A stretch of 25,601 nt of DNA from positions 1 to 25,601 of the IMG/VR virus record IMGVR_UViG_3300037493_002894. The stretch is one strand, 5' to 3'. Below are positions 1 to 20,388 of this stretch, in pieces. Made by a program: the position numbers and the translations under genes. Source of the stretch: a virus. Positions within the stretch are counted from its first letter, which is position 1; each line of letters begins with the position of its first letter. The notes beneath the pieces are model-generated. The model made no database searches. It was given only the letters and a program-made list of their open reading frames with translations, and was not told the origin of the DNA.

Positions 1-266
1 CCACCGATCACATCAGGGATGATCGCCCAATCACAAGCCGGGTGAGCTAACCATTCTTCTGACCACCCGTAATATTTGTCCCAGTCGACTTCGGTCCCCG
101 ACTTCCACAAGCTGAACGCCCCGTTGTCTAACGCAAACGATTGACATATCGAAGCGGCAAGTTTGAGTTGGACGGGGTGCGCCCATGAAACGAAAGCGTG
201 CCTGCCTTTCCAGGCTCTGATGGCACATGTCTCAGGCGTGATCGGTCCACCATGATAATGGATCAA
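1..266 (-). CDS. Phage TGT-like / DpdA-type transglycosylase, N-terminal part (cut by left edge)
   Basis: The only uninterrupted protein-like frame here begins at a TTG (266-264) that overlaps the TGA of the transporter gene (265-263), a TTGA coupling. 88 residues are visible; the 3' end lies left of the window. The product starts MIHYHGGPITPE, then has GRHAFVSWAHP (about 21-31), LDNGAFSLW (46-54) and DWAIIPDVIG (79-88). This pattern recalls phage proteins related to tRNA-guanine transglycosylase, the DpdA group, which exchanges guanine for a 7-deazaguanine base in DNA. The assignment rests on remembered family motifs plus the adjacent queuosine-precursor transporter. Catalytic residues further downstream cannot be checked because the gene is truncated. 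An ATG-started frame over the same bases (228-31) gives an unconvincing Arg-rich product and is treated as a shadow. Confidence 0.62.
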   Translation of the reverse strand, partial: MIHYHGGPITPETCAIRAWKGRHAFVSWAHPVQLKLAASICQSFALDNGAFSLWKSGTEVDWDKYYGWSEEWLAHPACDWAIIPDVIG

Positions 267-769
267 GCGGGTCGCCTTCTGCGAACTAGACCGACGATGA
301 TGATGGCGGGGACGGTCATCCAGAATTTGCCGAGGGTGTTGCCAACGATGAACTCAAGTGAACCGAAAGCGATCCACAGGAACAGTGCCGAGTCGATAAT
401 TGCGCCGACTGCGTTTGATGCGATGACTGCTGTGTGCCAATGACGTTCCCTCAGCGGCGTGTAGACGGCGAAGTCGGCCATCTCTGAACATAAGAACGCT
501 ACGCATGAGGCGAAGGCAAACACGGGGTCAATGAACGCTGAGAGCGCCGCACCAAGGACAATCAAGCCGACGGTCCAGCGTCGGCCTCCTAGTTCTTGAG
601 TCGCGTCGCGTAACCCGAACGACAGCCCGGCGAAGTAAACCCCGGCGGGTGCCATCAGCCCAAAGCCAACGGGTACTATCCCCCATGTTTTGAGCGCCCA
701 ATTTGCTCCGAGGATACAACTGAGAAAGGCAACGGATGTGATCGACAGGTAGAGCTTTTGTTTGTTCAT
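263..769 (-). CDS. VUT-family membrane transporter (queuosine-precursor / YhhQ-like)
   Basis: A 168-residue, strongly hydrophobic protein with about five or six membrane segments, ending in a basic tail (RRRRPA). Sequence features include APAGVYFAGLSFGLRDATQE, SEMADFAVYTPL and AIIDSALFLWIAFGSLEF, which match the VUT (DUF165, YhhQ-type) family of vitamin and queuosine-precursor uptake transporters. The length is somewhat below the roughly 200 or more residues of cellular members. The likely role is import of preQ0 or a related 7-deazaguanine into the infected cell. The start is supported by a -10-like TAGTAT (781-776) exactly 6 bases before the ATG, predicting a leaderless mRNA. Its stop overlaps the start of the TGT-like gene, so the two products probably act together. 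Confidence 0.82.
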   Translation of the reverse strand: MNKQKLYLSITSVAFLSCILGANWALKTWGIVPVGFGLMAPAGVYFAGLSFGLRDATQELGGRRWTVGLIVLGAALSAFIDPVFAFASCVAFLCSEMADFAVYTPLRERHWHTAVIASNAVGAIIDSALFLWIAFGSLEFIVGNTLGKFWMTVPAIIIVGLVRRRRPA

Positions 770-2251: not shown

Positions 2252-2965
2252 ATGGACTCAGAAACCAAAGACGCAATCAAACCTGTAGAGCTTGTACCAA
2301 TTGACTCACTGATCCCACACCCGGACAACCCGCGCAAAGGAAACCTTGACGCAGTAGTGGAGTCCATACAATCAAACGGGTTCTACGGATCTCTTGTCGT
2401 TCAGAAGTCAACACGACACATCCTTGTCGGCAACCACCGGTGGGAAGCACTTAGCATCCTCGGCTACACAGAAGTGCCGGTGACGTTCATGGACGTTGAC
2501 GACGGGACCGCAACAAAGATACTGCTCGCAGATAACCGCACCGCTGATCTTGCTACATACGATGATGAAGCCCTAGTCGCCATGCTATGCGCCCTCGTCG
2601 AAACCGACGACCTTGACGGCAGCGGCTACTCCGAGAACGAACTAGATGATCTGCTTGCATCACTAATCGAAGACACCGAGTCGCTCGCACCTGACGACCC
2701 TGGACAAACCCTCGCAGAGAAGTACAAGGACTCACCGATTTCAGATTTGGTTCCCGGCGGCGAAGGGTTCGTTGTCACGAACGATGACTCGGGTGACACT
2801 TCATCACTTCCAAAACGCCACATCATTTCCTATCAACTCGTGTTTGATGATGACGAACAGCAGTCAAGGTTCTATGCGTTCGTGCGGATGCTGAAGTCGA
2901 AGTATGAAGGCGCGACTCTCGCAGCGAGGCTTGATGTGTTCCTCACTGAAGCACTCGGCGAATGA
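2252..2965 (+). CDS. ParB-like nuclease-domain protein (first of two)
   Basis: A 237-residue protein. It has a ParB/Srx N-terminal domain (about 10-105) with PHPDNPR at 22-28 and the diagnostic GNHRWEAL at 60-67, the nucleotide-binding ParB box. An acidic middle and a C-terminal alpha/beta segment (FDDDEQQSRFYAFVRMLKSK) follow, as in phage ParB-domain proteins. It lacks a clear ParB helix-turn-helix, so plasmid partition is unlikely; a nuclease, CTP/ATP-binding switch or modification partner is more plausible. It opens a tightly packed operon and overlaps the oxygenase gene by an ATGA junction. A leaderless start is predicted from TACTCT at 2240. Confidence 0.85.
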   Translation: MDSETKDAIKPVELVPIDSLIPHPDNPRKGNLDAVVESIQSNGFYGSLVVQKSTRHILVGNHRWEALSILGYTEVPVTFMDVDDGTATKILLADNRTADLATYDDEALVAMLCALVETDDLDGSGYSENELDDLLASLIEDTESLAPDDPGQTLAEKYKDSPISDLVPGGEGFVVTNDDSGDTSSLPKRHIISYQLVFDDDEQQSRFYAFVRMLKSKYEGATLAARLDVFLTEALGE

Positions 2966-3543
2966 CAGAGTACGGGTTAGTTCCTAATTGGTTACCTACT
3001 GAACGTGCTGACTCTCTGTACGCGCGAGTCCTTGAAGACATGCCGCCACGCTTAGATGAAACCAGGTCGAACGGATCACTTGTCGACGACCATCGTTGGG
3101 TTGGCGACCGGTACTACGCAGAACGGGTAGTGCCTGAACTTGTTGACCTAGCGGATACGGCACGCGCAACAGCACAAGCGTTCTTTGATACACCGATCCT
3201 TCCATCACCATTTGAGAGATCAGCTATCACGGTGATCGTTTACGGGCCGGGAGATTGGAAAGACTTTCACTACGACAGCAACAGCGTGACAGCACTGCTT
3301 GTCCTCGGCGGTGAAAGCGAAGGAGCGAGAACTTGGGTCGCCGAGTCGACCGACGCTGGGTCGCCAATTCGACCGGTGGACAATTCGACGGGTGGGCTGC
3401 TTGTGTTTGATGGTAAGAACGTGCGTCATGGTGTGTTGCCGGTTACTAACCCAACTCCAAGGGTGACGGTTGTGTTCAATTTGTATCTTGACGGTGATGT
3501 GAACCGGCCTGTTACGCAGGATGAGAAAGTGTACGGGAACTGA
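2962..3543 (+). CDS. 2-oxoglutarate/Fe(II)-dependent oxygenase
   Basis: A 193-residue protein with the double-stranded beta-helix signature of 2OG-Fe(II) dioxygenases: H103 and D105 in DFHYDSN, distal H156 in NVRHGV, and R167 in TPRVTVVF as the likely 2-oxoglutarate contact. All iron ligands are present, so an active enzyme is expected. Substrates of phage members include protein side chains, nucleotides and DNA bases; nothing here fixes the choice. Its ATG overlaps the stop of the ParB-like gene, and the PAPS-reductase-like gene starts two bases after its stop. Confidence 0.82.
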   Translation: MTEYGLVPNWLPTERADSLYARVLEDMPPRLDETRSNGSLVDDHRWVGDRYYAERVVPELVDLADTARATAQAFFDTPILPSPFERSAITVIVYGPGDWKDFHYDSNSVTALLVLGGESEGARTWVAESTDAGSPIRPVDNSTGGLLVFDGKNVRHGVLPVTNPTPRVTVVFNLYLDGDVNRPVTQDEKVYGN

Positions 3544-3545
3544 TT

Positions 3546-4652
3546 GTGTCAAGGTATAAGCACTACATTCCTGAAACGGTTTTGGATGAGGCGAAGAAGC
3601 GCATCCATCACATTTACGACACGTTTGATTCTGTTGCAGTGTGTTTCTCCGGGGGTAAGGATTCCCTTGTGGTGATGCACTTGATGAAGGAAGTTGCTGA
3701 GGAGCGTGGAGAGGGTCCATTCCTAGTTGTGTTTCGTGACGAGGAGTTGATTCACCCGTCAGTCGCGAAGTTTATGGAGTCTTATAGGGATTTGCCGTGG
3801 TGTGATCTTGAGTGGTGGACGGTTCCCCTGTCGTCGACGGCTTACCTGTTGGGGCGGAATATCCCGATTGTTCAGTGGGATGAGGAACGCAACCCTGATA
3901 TGTGGGCGCGTGAACGTCCTGAATGGGGGCTAAAGATCGAAGACTTGGGGCTACCCGCCGGGACAATCCTTGACCAACATTTCGCTGATGAGATAGCCGC
4001 CAGGAATCTGCCGGGGAAGGTAGCGCTGATAACGGGTGTGCGCGCCGCTGAGGGGCTTATGCGTTACCGGTCCTGCGTGAACAAGCTGTCCGAGAACTAC
4101 CTTGTTGCTTCTACGAGTCGCCGGATGATGCTTGCCCGACCTATTTTCGATTGGCAAGAGAACGATGTTTTCCGTTACCTATGGGAAAACGATATTGCTT
4201 ATGCGCCTATCTATGATGCGCAAACATGGGGTAAGCGGGAGTTGAGGGTATCTTCTGCGCTTCCACCTGAAACGTCAAAGCTGATGCACAAACTCAAAGC
4301 AATCGACCCTGATCTGTATGAGATGGTGGCGCGTGTCTTCCCGCATGTCGAAATCCAATCCCGTTATTCGCAAGACCTAAACAAGCAACGTCTGATTGAC
4401 AAGTACGCGCACTCATGGGAAGGGCTGCGTGAGTTTATTGACGTTGAGATCGAAGACGAGAAACAGAAACGGGTCGCTCTGCTTGAGTTCAGAGCGACTT
4501 ATGTGCGGGCTACGAACGACCCGGACGCATACCCGCTTGACTATGTGTTGAAGTCGTTTATCAACAACGGGGGGATCAGGCGGGTTATGCCCATGATCCG
4601 CAATTCTAAACCAGAGGTGAAAGGCCAAGATGAACCAACCACTGTTTCCTGA
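3546..4652 (+). CDS. PAPS-reductase-like ATP-pyrophosphatase (IbrA type)
   Basis: A 368-residue protein with the PP-loop SGGKDS at 35-40, followed by a typical adenine-nucleotide alpha-hydrolase domain (LITGVRAAEG, then RPIFDWQENDVFRYLWEN). The long C-terminal part (about 230-360) resembles the extension of IbrA-like proteins, which co-occur with ParB-domain IbrB proteins. This enzyme class adenylates a substrate and often handles sulfur, but no sulfur-carrier gene is adjacent. Translation appears to start at GTG 3546, two bases after the oxygenase stop. The downstream ParB-like gene overlaps its 3' end by 23 bases. Confidence 0.85.
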   Translation: MSRYKHYIPETVLDEAKKRIHHIYDTFDSVAVCFSGGKDSLVVMHLMKEVAEERGEGPFLVVFRDEELIHPSVAKFMESYRDLPWCDLEWWTVPLSSTAYLLGRNIPIVQWDEERNPDMWARERPEWGLKIEDLGLPAGTILDQHFADEIAARNLPGKVALITGVRAAEGLMRYRSCVNKLSENYLVASTSRRMMLARPIFDWQENDVFRYLWENDIAYAPIYDAQTWGKRELRVSSALPPETSKLMHKLKAIDPDLYEMVARVFPHVEIQSRYSQDLNKQRLIDKYAHSWEGLREFIDVEIEDEKQKRVALLEFRATYVRATNDPDAYPLDYVLKSFINNGGIRRVMPMIRNSKPEVKGQDEPTTVS

Positions 4653-5259
4653 TGAGCCGTTGCATAAGGTCGTCTGGATTGCTGCTGCTGACTTGCGGGC
4701 TAATAGTTGGAACCCTAACCGGGTGTTCAAGCAGGAGTTGAAACTCCTGGAGCGGTCCCTGCTTTACTCGGGGTGGATTCAACCACTGCTTGTAACAGAG
4801 TCGGGTCTAGTGATCGACGGGTTTCACAGGTGGCGGCTCTCTCAAGATTCGGCTGAGATCGTTAAGCGGTGGGGTGGGATGGTTCCTTGTTCAGTGATGG
4901 CGTTACCTGACGACGAAGCGATGGCTTTGACTGTGAGGATCAACCGGGCCAAGGGAACACATTCAGCAGTCGATATGCACAAACTTGTCGCAAGCCTCGT
5001 CGCCGACTGGGGCTGGCGACCCGAGCGTGTGGCTGAGGAAATTGGTGCCTCGCTAGAGGAAGTCGATTTGCTGTGTAAGGAGGGGGTCTTTGCGCAGAAG
5101 AACATTTCTGCTTGGTCTTACAGCGCGGCTTGGTATCCCGGTGAGTCTGAGAAGAATGATAATCACGGGCCGGAATCGAAGGCTTCTGCTGAAGCGATCT
5201 TGAAAGCTCGTGCTGCTGCTGTACCCGACGATGACAACTTAGGAACACGGTCCTACTGA
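4630..5259 (+). CDS. ParB-like protein, IbrB type (second of two)
   Basis: A 209-residue protein with a ParB-type domain at about 12-110: DLRANSWNPN at 21-30, the box DGFHRWRLS at 63-71 and RINRAKGTH near 100. A helical region (EEIGASLEEVDLLCKEG) follows. The RINRAKGTH stretch and the overlap with the PAPS-reductase-like gene fit the IbrB half of IbrA/IbrB pairs. It differs clearly from the first ParB-like protein at 2252, so this is not a recent duplication. An AAAGG ribosome-binding site about 6 bases upstream supports the ATG. The GNAT gene starts on its TGA (TGATG). Confidence 0.82.
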   Translation: MNQPLFPDEPLHKVVWIAAADLRANSWNPNRVFKQELKLLERSLLYSGWIQPLLVTESGLVIDGFHRWRLSQDSAEIVKRWGGMVPCSVMALPDDEAMALTVRINRAKGTHSAVDMHKLVASLVADWGWRPERVAEEIGASLEEVDLLCKEGVFAQKNISAWSYSAAWYPGESEKNDNHGPESKASAEAILKARAAAVPDDDNLGTRSY

Positions 5260-5735
5260 TGGGTGATTGCCCGGAGAACCCAATCAGAGACTCCTCATAC
5301 GACGAGGTTATGGATCAGTTTGGGTGGTTGTACCGTGCTGAGAAGTTGCCTGCTTCGCTTGTGTTGAAAGCCCGTTGGTTCATTTCGGAGGCTGCTTCTG
5401 CCGCTATCGTCCGTGTCAACCCTGATGTCGTCAGGTTGAAAGGGATGGTGGTGCTGCCTGAGTGGAGGGGCTGTGGTTATGGTGAAGCAATGCTTCTTCA
5501 CATGATGCGGGCCGGGGTCGCTAGCGGTTATACGACGGGTGAAGCGTTCACTCATCCGGTCGCGCCACGGACTCCGACCGCAGGACCACGATGGTTCTTA
5601 GAACGTGGGTGGGTCGAAGTGCGCCGCACGAAACACGGGATGGGTGTTTACCGTGGGGATCTGCTCACAACATTGGGTTCAGATATTGCGGCGGGGGTCG
5701 ATGACCATTCCGTGCAAGACGGGATCACCGATTGA
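5259..5735 (+). CDS. GNAT-family N-acetyltransferase
   Basis: A 158-residue protein with the acetyl-CoA motif RGCGYG at 70-75 after the beta-strand VRLKGMVVLPEW, and a C-terminal GPRWFLERGWVEV segment typical of GNAT motif B. The substrate cannot be told. It is last in the cassette (ParB, oxygenase, PAPS-reductase-like, ParB, GNAT), joined to the ParB-like gene by a TGATG overlap, and so may modify the same target. Its 3' end overlaps the convergent HNH gene by 57 bases. Confidence 0.78.
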   Translation: MGDCPENPIRDSSYDEVMDQFGWLYRAEKLPASLVLKARWFISEAASAAIVRVNPDVVRLKGMVVLPEWRGCGYGEAMLLHMMRAGVASGYTTGEAFTHPVAPRTPTAGPRWFLERGWVEVRRTKHGMGVYRGDLLTTLGSDIAAGVDDHSVQDGITD

Positions 5736-6577: not shown

Positions 6578-7438
6578 ATGAATCCCAACTCCGACAGTAA
6601 CACTCCAAGACCTCTTAGAATCTTGAGTTTTGGTGCGGGGGTGCAGTCATCAGCGGTTGCGCGTATGTCGATCATTGGCGAGCTTCCACCGTTCGATCAT
6701 GTGATCTTTGCTGATACCGGGGATGAACCGGAGTCTGTATACACAAACATGAAATGGTGGGAGAAACGGTTCACCGACGAGGGTGTTGCGTTTCATCAGG
6801 TTGGGCGAGAGACTTCAATTTCGGATGATCTGCGTGCTGTGGCATCGGGTGAGAAAACCCGCTCATCTAACCCGCCGCTGTTTACAAAGAACGATGATGG
6901 TAGTACGGGGATCATTAGAAGAACGTGTACTTCTGACTACAAAATTGAACCCATCATGCGGCTGATCCGAGACATCACAGGGTTGTATAAAAAGCGGCAC
7001 ATGCACATCACGGAAACCCTGGTTGAGCAGACAATGGGTATCTCGTGGGATGAGGTTCAGCGGATGAAATCCCATCCGTACCCGTGGGTCGAAAATGTGT
7101 ACCCGCTTGTCGACCGCAGGATCACCCGTTACGACTGTATTGCTGCGATGAAGGCTGACGACACGTTCCCTGATCCTGTTCGTTCTGCTTGTTGGCATTG
7201 CCCTTTCCACTCAAACGAGGAGTGGAGGTATTTGCGGAATGAAGAACCCGAGTCGTTCCAGAAAGCTATCGACCTAGACTTGGCCCTGAGAGCTAATGGG
7301 CAATTCGGGAAGATCACAAAGCCGGTCTATCTGCACAATTCCGGCAAACCGCTTGGCGAGATCAACTTTGATAATGCCGAGGATGCGGGTCAGGGAACCT
7401 TGTGGGGTGATGAGTGCGCCGGGGTGTGCGGGGTATAA
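6578..7438 (+). CDS. PAPS-reductase-superfamily protein with variant P-loop (phage type)
   Basis: A 286-residue protein. The N-terminal ILSFGAGVQSSAV (15-27) replaces the usual SGGxDS PP-loop, a variant common in phage and plasmid members of the PAPS-reductase/adenine-nucleotide alpha-hydrolase superfamily. Further features are FADTGDEPE (about 48-56), RRTCTSDYKI, and ACWHCPFHSNEEWRYL with a CxxC. The fold is clear but the substrate is not; suggestions for the family include nucleotide, DNA or tRNA modification. It is unrelated in detail to the IbrA-type protein at 3546, so the window carries two separate members. The start follows a possible leaderless -10. Confidence 0.8.
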   Translation: MNPNSDSNTPRPLRILSFGAGVQSSAVARMSIIGELPPFDHVIFADTGDEPESVYTNMKWWEKRFTDEGVAFHQVGRETSISDDLRAVASGEKTRSSNPPLFTKNDDGSTGIIRRTCTSDYKIEPIMRLIRDITGLYKKRHMHITETLVEQTMGISWDEVQRMKSHPYPWVENVYPLVDRRITRYDCIAAMKADDTFPDPVRSACWHCPFHSNEEWRYLRNEEPESFQKAIDLDLALRANGQFGKITKPVYLHNSGKPLGEINFDNAEDAGQGTLWGDECAGVCGV

Positions 7439-7559: not shown

Positions 7560-7592
7560 CGTGTATCTAACCGACAACTGAAAGAGGTGACC

Positions 7593-8018
7593 ATGAGGCT
7601 GAATCTCAGGTCTGTATCTATTGCGGCAATCGTGATCCTATCTGCCGTGTCAAGTGTTAGCTGTACCCCGGAGGAGATAGCTGCGTATGCGACGATGAAC
7701 CCGGCGGAGCAGGCTGCTGTGACTGCGCATCTGCAAGCGCAAGCGGAACCTGTCGTGCAAGCGCACACGCCTCCGGGTGGTTTCCTTGCGTGCGTCCGTA
7801 GGCATGAGAGCGGCGGGAATTATCAAGCTAAGAATCCGAACAGTACTGCGTCGGGGGCTTATCAGTTTCTTGATTCGACCTGGCGGACGATGAGCGCCCG
7901 TGCAGGCCACGGGGGTTACGGCTCGGCCCGTTCTGCACCGCCGTGGGTTCAGGATGCCGTCGCAATCTACACCGTCAATGCCGGGTGGCGTAGTGCGTGG
8001 AACGGCACCGGCTGCTAG
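7593..8018 (+). CDS. Secreted Rpf-like/transglycosylase lipoprotein
   Basis: A 141-residue protein started at ATG 7593, because the AGAGGTG overlapping the alternative GTG at 7587 reads as its ribosome-binding site. Residues 1-24 form a signal peptide ending VSSVSC; C24 could be lipidated, although Ser at -3 is not a canonical lipobox. The C-terminal domain (about 63-141) has ACVRRHESGGNY with E72 as probable catalytic acid, then SGAYQFLDSTW and a terminal Cys. This is the lysozyme-like fold of resuscitation-promoting factors and transglycosylases, which cut peptidoglycan. It may aid lysis, remodel the wall or affect host dormancy. It stands alone between a hairpin and the convergent GP88 gene. 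Confidence 0.82.
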   Translation: MRLNLRSVSIAAIVILSAVSSVSCTPEEIAAYATMNPAEQAAVTAHLQAQAEPVVQAHTPPGGFLACVRRHESGGNYQAKNPNSTASGAYQFLDSTWRTMSARAGHGGYGSARSAPPWVQDAVAIYTVNAGWRSAWNGTGC

Positions 8019-8752
8019 TCGAATAGGCTTGGGGGTTCGGGCGTAGTCCAAATTCGTTCCCCTGCCTCGTGTGCTGCTTGCAGTTCTCGGAAGGTTCTTT
8101 GCTTCTGTTTGTTCCGTAGTTTCTTAACCGGGTTTGCTATAACGGCTATCTGGTTTGTTGGCAGAGTTACCGAGTGCCGGTCATCCTCGTGTTGTGAGCT
8201 ATACCCGGCGACGGTCGCTGCTTCTAGGCTTGGGAACACATCACAATGCCTATCCGCTACAAGGTCTATTAGTTTGTCCTCCTTACCTCCAAGGCTGAAC
8301 AGGTACATGAAGTTGTCGGGTCGTTGGCCTTGTTCGACACACCTGCGGAACCGTGATACCTCGCGTGTGTACGCGTAGAATGTTACGTCGGGAGTTACGG
8401 CGGCGATCCTAAGCCAAGCTTCAAGATACTCGTCGGAGAAGAAATCACCTGCGTCGTGAATGCGAACCCACTTCGACCGGTAGCGACGGTGAGTCAGTTC
8501 TTCAATCATTGACTGCTCCCAACTCGCCAGGTCGGTGACAACGAGTTCAAGGTTGCGTGTATGAGCCGCAAGAACATTTGAGAAGCGGTAAGTGTTTGTT
8601 CTCGCATAGCAAAGCGTTGCGCATATGCCTGCGGCGGGGCAGGTGTTAACTCGTTGCCCGTCGGAGAGTACTGCGCTCAAAGCCGGTATCGTCCAATTGA
8701 ACACGCCAAGCGGTCTAAGTTCGCTGTTCTGAGTGAGCAAGAACTTTCCCAT
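8015..8752 (-). CDS. GP88-family protein (gene product 88)
   Basis: A 245-residue protein with an N-terminal Cys cluster C38-x5-C44-x3-C48 in NTCPAAGICATLCYA, then VRIHDAGDFFSDEYLEAW and VTFYAYTREVSRF. These match the GP88 family known mainly from actinobacteriophages; the biochemical function is not established. The Cys pattern recalls metal or Fe-S binding. A TAGAAT -10 ends 7 bases before the ATG, so the mRNA is probably leaderless. It overlaps the convergent Rpf-like gene by 4 bases. Confidence 0.75.
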   Translation of the reverse strand: MGKFLLTQNSELRPLGVFNWTIPALSAVLSDGQRVNTCPAAGICATLCYARTNTYRFSNVLAAHTRNLELVVTDLASWEQSMIEELTHRRYRSKWVRIHDAGDFFSDEYLEAWLRIAAVTPDVTFYAYTREVSRFRRCVEQGQRPDNFMYLFSLGGKEDKLIDLVADRHCDVFPSLEAATVAGYSSQHEDDRHSVTLPTNQIAVIANPVKKLRNKQKQRTFRELQAAHEAGERIWTTPEPPSLFD

Positions 8753-20016: not shown

Positions 20017-20388
20017 ATCAAAGACGGCCCCGATGATTGGAAACTCAAAGCACGTTGCCGGGGCAAACCCCCTAGCATGTTCTTCCCCAAACAGGGTCAG
20101 TACCAAGATGTCGTCAGAGCCAAACAATTCTGTTCGGAATGTGAAGTCCAACAAGAATGTTTGACAGCCAACATCGACGAAGATGACGGCGTATACGGCG
20201 GCACATCCGGCAGGCAACGCAAAGAGATCCGGCGCGCTATGAAGCGAGCCGAGAGAGTAAGGGTACAAAATGAAAATCGTCTTAACTATCGAAACCTCAC
20301 GGCACAGGCGGAACCGTGGGAAGGACCAAGACCCGGAATCGACCCCAGTCGCAGCGACTCCGCCGACTCCGGCGACCCTGGCACCTAA
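20017..20388 (+). CDS. WhiB-family regulator, apparent ATC start
   Basis: Reading from ATC 20017 gives 123 residues with all four WhiB cysteines: C14 in KARCRG, C39 and C42 in FCSEC, C48 in QQEC (CxxCx5C), followed by GVYGGTSGRQRKEIRRAMK. The usual GVWGG has Tyr for Trp. WhiB proteins hold a [4Fe-4S] cluster and bind sigma factors or DNA. The ATG at 20077 would lose C14; the frame has a TAA at 20005-20007, and no ATG, GTG or TTG lies between it and 20077. An ATC start on a leaderless mRNA is the best explanation; a sequencing error is the alternative. The C-terminal 50 residues are poorly conserved in kind. Confidence 0.8.
   Translation: MKDGPDDWKLKARCRGKPPSMFFPKQGQYQDVVRAKQFCSECEVQQECLTANIDEDDGVYGGTSGRQRKEIRRAMKRAERVRVQNENRLNYRNLTAQAEPWEGPRPGIDPSRSDSADSGDPGT

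Follow-up and report, generated by a model that had tools for sequence, protein, structure and literature searches.

Salvage of preQ0 and preQ1 in E. coli requires the transporter YhhQ, and the COG1738 family of such transporters may comprise subfamilies that differ in specificity (PMC5372724). In phages, the DNA of CAjan (Seuratvirus) contains dPreQ0, which is lost upon deletion of dpdA (PMC6884629). Hutinet 2019 suggested that phages carrying DpdA alone may use a precursor that is made by the host or imported, and reported YhhQ in some phages, uncorrelated with any phage group (PMC6884629). Orion, whose host lacks the pathway, was found to contain no modified base despite carrying DpdA, and a trace was detected in the DpdA-only Salmonella phage 7-11 (PMC6884629). 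Since the two tested phages carry little or no modified base, the DpdA-only phages have been puzzling; the result for Orion is what a missing precursor would give. Here we describe a phage locus in which a DpdA-like gene lies directly behind the gene of a VUT-family transporter, and compare it with related loci in other phages and in bacteria.

Gene layout of the locus and the VUT-domain protein

The stretch analysed here (the window) is a whole virus record of 25,601 bases (25.6 kb). The features of the locus, all of them on the minus strand, are as follows:

769..263, minus strand: VUT/YhhQ-type membrane transporter (COG1738-like, phrog_4899), predicted 7-deazaguanine-precursor importer; ATG start, 168 aa
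1..266 (frame 266..3), minus strand: gene for a DpdA-like transglycosylase (N-terminal 88 codons); TTG start, incomplete at the contig end
263..266, minus strand: TTGA shared by the TTG start and the TGA stop, an overlap of the type used for translational coupling
131..105, minus strand: LDNGAFSLW motif, containing Asp47
32..3, minus strand: DWAIIPDVIG motif, containing Pro84-Asp85

The initial annotation had described a TTG-started frame that overlaps the stop of the VUT gene and encodes these two motifs. Both ORFs were found at this place on the minus strand, with the enzyme start TTG at 266-264 and the VUT stop TGA at 265-263 sharing the 4-base TTGA, and both motifs were located in the frame. 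No other in-frame start codon was found upstream of the TTG. The fragment begins exactly at the start of the phrog_887 family, and its TTG codon falls on the M1 that is invariant in 34 relatives. The frame is therefore a genuine gene that uses a rare start codon, and the chance that it is non-coding is negligible. As the window spans the entire virus record, the gene breaks off where the contig ends, so that the window holds the first 88 residues and the predicted nucleophile (Asp189 in the relative L064) lies beyond it. A fuller copy of the phage sequence was sought among viral contigs, but the closest relative was only 75% identical over the fragment and the missing part of the enzyme gene was therefore not recovered.

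The VUT protein matched Pfam PF02592 with 46.3 bits (cut-off 27.2) and was assigned to phrog_4899 (E 1e-39). The PF02592 domain is common to this protein and the VUT/YhhQ (COG1738) queuosine-precursor transporters; the window protein differs from them in its short length (about 170 aa), in having a phage family of its own and in falling below the NCBIfam cut-offs for preQ0/preQ1 transporter equivalogs, with scores of 31.3 against 50.95 for TIGR00697 ('queuosine precursor transporter') and 25.4 against 252 for PRK11212. On these sequence scores it is classed as a VUT-domain protein and not as a YhhQ equivalog. The predicted structure (pLDDT 90) was mainly helical, and Foldseek returned a weak likeness to ECF S-components, none with E under 0.001. 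The nearest bacterial relatives of the transporter were found in Chloroflexi, Alphaproteobacteria and Actinobacteria.

Elsewhere in the window, an actinobacterial host is suggested by two features, a WhiB gene (20077-20388) and a transglycosylase-like domain (7587-8018). Genes for ParB-like, 2OG-Fe(II) oxygenase-like, PAPS reductase, ParB-like and GNAT acetyltransferase proteins are arranged head-to-tail at 2252-5735; they may include an IbrA/IbrB-like pairing, and the run could be a second nucleic-acid modification cluster or a sulphur-related one. A second PAPS reductase-like gene (phrog_424) lies at 6578-7438 and a gene for a Gene product 88 family protein (PF17338, E 1e-52) at 8015-8752. 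At the right contig end (22696-25259), three glycosyltransferase-type genes are followed by a methyltransferase-like ORF.

Sequence and structure of the TGT-like enzyme family

The enzyme fragment matched phrog_887, annotated as 'queuine tRNA-ribosyltransferase', over all 88 residues (E 9e-32). When it was used as a tblastn query, 94 phage records (up to 74% identity) and 468 viral-contig stretches were obtained; the 80 closest relatives showed 61-75% identity, and the full-length protein has about 250 aa. The invariant or nearly invariant residues, in the numbering of L064, were Asp47 (in DNGAF), Pro84-Asp85, Gly134-Ser135, His170 and Asp189-Ser190. Asp47 and Pro84-Asp85 were invariant in all 35 aligned sequences, the window fragment included, and His170 and Asp189 were conserved in at least 90% of the relatives, in a region that in the window gene lies past the contig end.

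A profile was built from the phrog_887 relatives, with the window fragment as part of their alignment. It detected the DpdA of phage 9g with 37 bits (E 2.6e-8) and that of the Seuratvirus WildeMaa with 50 bits (E 3.4e-12), both at Z=200,000, while the best of 2,000 shuffled DpdA sequences reached 6.5 bits; E. coli TGT was not reported by this search. In the profile alignment, Asp47, His170 and Asp189 corresponded to Asp72, His196 and Asp215 of 9g DpdA, of which His196 is the conserved DpdA histidine that is absent from DpdA2 (PMC6884629). The TGT zinc motif CxCxxC, located at 302 in E. coli TGT, was found in 0 of the 35 aligned sequences (full-length relatives; the window fragment ends before this region). 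The full-length relatives gave no match to the Pfam TGT domain, and neither Pfam nor NCBIfam provided a name for the full-length enzyme. A sequence-profile search of PDB chains with the enzyme family yielded nothing useful, and hhalign gave no meaningful match between the family and either E. coli TGT as a single sequence or the phrog_1279 set.

The full-length relative L064, which is itself coupled to a VUT gene, was modelled with AlphaFold (pLDDT 91, pTM 0.88), and the model showed eight strands alternating with helices. Foldseek alone placed unrelated TIM barrels first (E about 6e-4) and an archaeal TGT only 41st. When the top 1,000 Foldseek matches were realigned with VIA-align, the top 50 rows were all TGTs or the TGT-fold protein Cap10 (Z 14.2-15.6, 210-228 residues aligned), and assorted TIM barrels were accordingly rejected as the nearest fold. 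The model thus supports a TGT barrel in the full-length relatives of the window enzyme. Based on the strand order and general knowledge of TGTs, we take Asp47, at the end of strand 3, to be the general acid/base, Asp85, after strand 4, to be the base-recognition residue and Asp189, in strand 8, to be the nucleophile. The fold by itself cannot separate a TGT from a DpdA; the sequence can. The initial annotation had proposed a structure prediction of the complete protein: in the full-length relatives the TGT barrel and the conserved Asp residues were found, while the window gene contains Asp47 and Asp85 and ends before the equivalent of Asp189.

Pairing of transporter and TGT-like genes in phages

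With the window transporter as the query, a first scan yielded 20 viral loci. A partner of the phrog_887 or phrog_15826 type was present at 13 of them and a phrog_1279 gene at the other 7, so that all 20 loci had a TGT-like partner (L087 was counted as a phrog_1279 locus on the strength of its identity to L086). When a transporter profile was used for a second scan, another 79 loci were obtained, part of them on contigs that the first scan had already returned; a member of the three TGT-like families was found at 70 of these, within 700 bases in 68 cases and on the same strand in 70/70. When the transporters were grouped, isolates included, a partner was present in 65 of 73 groups at 95% identity and in 51 of 57 at 80%. 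The 80 nearest transporter loci of bacterial genomes served as a control, and a TGT-like neighbour was observed at only 2 of them, which may be prophages. Chance adjacency of transporter and enzyme was rejected on these counts (70/79 loci, 51/57 groups, 2/80 in bacteria). The pairing in phages is highly non-random, and it is rare in bacterial chromosomes.

The transporter gene comes first in most phrog_1279 and phrog_15826 pairs and the enzyme gene in most phrog_887 pairs; the window belongs, together with L062, L064 and L090, to the loci in which the transporter precedes a phrog_887 partner. An in-frame start (ATG, GTG or TTG) is available at the -4 overlap in 40 of 94 related pairs, whose true starts may differ. 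On the weakly resolved transporter tree, the partner family changed at least 12 times, and the pair has therefore probably been assembled repeatedly. Viewed from the enzyme, the link was one-sided: of the 80 viral loci nearest to the window gene, only 2 had the transporter, which is thus an accessory, as most phrog_887 phages (78 of these 80 loci) lack a VUT neighbour. The phrog_1279 partner family comprises many mycobacteriophage genes named queuine tRNA-ribosyltransferase, and some partner genes are already annotated as DpdA-like.

Two loci counted as partnerless were also read by eye. At L122, a TGT-like ORF (1252-2136, YIIDSGAFQELD ... STDSSAPEM) lies directly upstream of the VUT gene and falls outside the three families by E-value. 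At L154, a QueC-like gene (4383-5108) lies directly downstream of the VUT gene, in the place held elsewhere by the inserter. In Erythrobacter phage ZS04 (PV416405.1), a phrog_15826-type match was located at 63897-64523 under a gene annotated as DarB-like antirestriction protein.

The same transporter-enzyme pair recurs in dozens of unrelated phages. It is carried by the cultured phages RHph_N3_2, Pam5, Aoka, Bhagsy, phiLM21, ReqiPine5, PEAT2 and GreaseLightnin; in the cultured phage RHph_X2_30 its members are two small genes apart, and in RHph_X3_2 a DUF165 gene was found with no TGT-like neighbour in the stretch examined. A PAPS reductase gene adjoins the pair in ReqiPine5 (L269), and RHph_N3_2 (L102) has another no more than about 5 kb away from its pair.

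Neither the window nor eight complete phage genomes that carry the pair gave a match to models of QueC or QueD, and WildeMaa, the positive control, scored with both. Among 30 environmental contigs, QueC was above the cut-off in one. A Pfam scan of the main ORFs of the window detected no preQ0 genes; as the window contig is a fragment, the absence of synthesis genes there is weak evidence, since they may lie elsewhere in the genome. The earlier proposal that the precursor is scavenged rather than made agrees with the lack of QueC and QueD matches in the window (a fragment) and in the eight complete genomes.

Proposed function and comparison with known systems

We consider it likely that the pair is a scavenging 7-deazaguanine module, in which a base is imported, inserted into the phage DNA and shields it from host restriction. 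The VUT protein would supply the infected cell with a preformed 7-deazaguanine from outside, with preQ0 as the likeliest base ahead of preQ1 or a relative of these, and the small DpdA-like transglycosylase would swap guanine in the phage DNA for it by means of an aspartate nucleophile, as TGT does in tRNA. The inserted base would then protect the phage DNA against host restriction. We infer such a precursor as the transport substrate, DNA as the target of the enzyme and protection from restriction as the outcome; no measurement of a modified base in a phage of the phrog_887 family was found in the literature.

Use of the imported base in host or phage tRNA, which would adjust decoding during infection, is an unlikely function of the pair. 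The barrel is that of a TGT, and no structural match outscores the archaeal and bacterial tRNA TGTs; YhhQ-type transporters normally serve tRNA queuosine (PMC5372724), and databases label phrog_887 as queuine tRNA-ribosyltransferase. However, the profile is related to DpdA and not to E. coli TGT, the zinc site is missing in 35/35 aligned sequences whereas His196 of 9g is kept, and the enzyme has about 250 aa as against 375. The enzyme might also use a precursor made by the host, with the transporter serving mainly another role such as purine or nucleoside uptake. The occurrence of phrog_887 in phages of Salmonella, Klebsiella, Escherichia and Vibrio would fit this, as enterobacteria make preQ0, and so would the lack of a VUT neighbour at nearly all related viral loci and the possible subfamilies of different specificity in COG1738 (PMC5372724). 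However, the pair occurs in Bhagsy and GreaseLightnin although mycobacterial hosts lack the preQ0 pathway (PMC6884629), and the linkage of the transporter to an inserter is specific; we regard this explanation as distinctly improbable.

Cap10 (9ntn) was the top structural match at Z 15.6, tied with TGTs, and it belongs to the TGT family but has been turned to the formation of a protein conjugate (PMC11996544). The phage enzyme might likewise attach a 7-deazaguanine to a protein or bind one there, as the Cap9/Cap10 pair of type IV CBASS does, either to attack host immunity or to withstand it. This role has very little probability: the tie in Z carries no information, the conserved Asp/His set fits DpdA, and neither the window nor the eight complete pair-carrying phage genomes yielded a QueC-like partner of the Cap9 kind. 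Strongly disfavoured, and the least probable of all, is a transporter that has nothing to do with the enzyme, the two being neighbours by chance or through a shared dense early operon. Most phrog_887 genes do have no VUT neighbour, and in the window short leftward genes come before the pair; against this, a TGT-like gene accompanies the transporter at 20/20 and 70/79 loci, from three families and in both orders, with at least 12 partner changes on the weakly resolved tree and only 2/80 cases in bacterial chromosomes.

The reading of the pair as an importer and an inserter of a 7-deazaguanine into DNA is therefore preferred. The initial annotation had already called the locus a coupled module of this kind, and the pairing, the barrel and the kinship to DpdA bear it out, with the reservation that the window sequence covers only 88 enzyme residues. 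A wider generalization, to which we give somewhat less than an even chance, is that a short VUT protein and a small DpdA-like enzyme make up a cassette that is widespread among phages and was put together on many occasions, with enzymes of three families. DNA modification would then depend on environmental 7-deazaguanines, and restriction resistance would vary with the nutrients around the host. If true, the cassette would let phages of hosts without a queuosine pathway use bases from other microbes, and it suggests that modified bases passed from one microbe to another play a part in phage defence. For the DpdA-only phages, a linked importer offers a simple answer: DNA would be modified only when the precursor is available, and tests in ordinary medium may miss the modification. 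The hosts of the cultured phages that carry the pair include Mycobacterium smegmatis (Bhagsy, GreaseLightnin), Arthrobacter (Aoka, on Arthrobacter globiformis; its gp40 is a full-length relative), Rhizobium and Pseudanabaena.

Compared with known systems, the enzyme shares with the DpdA of Enterobacteria phage 9g and of the Seuratviruses (CAjan, WildeMaa) a kinship at the profile level and the aligned Asp/His/Asp residues, including His196. The Seuratviruses also have a YhhQ gene close to dpdA, and in WildeMaa it lies within the preQ0 synthesis cluster together with DpdA. The DpdA proteins of 9g and WildeMaa have 317 and 306 aa and are encoded in preQ0 synthesis clusters, whereas the phrog_887 enzyme has about 250 aa and the pair consists of enzyme and transporter, with synthesis genes undetected. 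Cap10 of type IV CBASS has the TGT-family fold and 7-deazaguanine chemistry in common with the enzyme, but acts on a protein N-terminus with the QueC-like Cap9, a kind of partner not found in the window or the eight phage genomes. New relative to Hutinet 2019 are the tight linkage, the repeated assembly and the bacterial control; a 2023 NAR article on further phage 7-deazaguanines or a 2024 review (PMC10966956) might already report the linkage. A further counterpart is group 3 of Hutinet 2019, the DpdA-only phages (Orion, Salmonella 7-11), in which, as here, an inserter occurs without synthesis genes; in contrast to that group, one transporter subfamily is here tightly linked to small DpdA-like genes.
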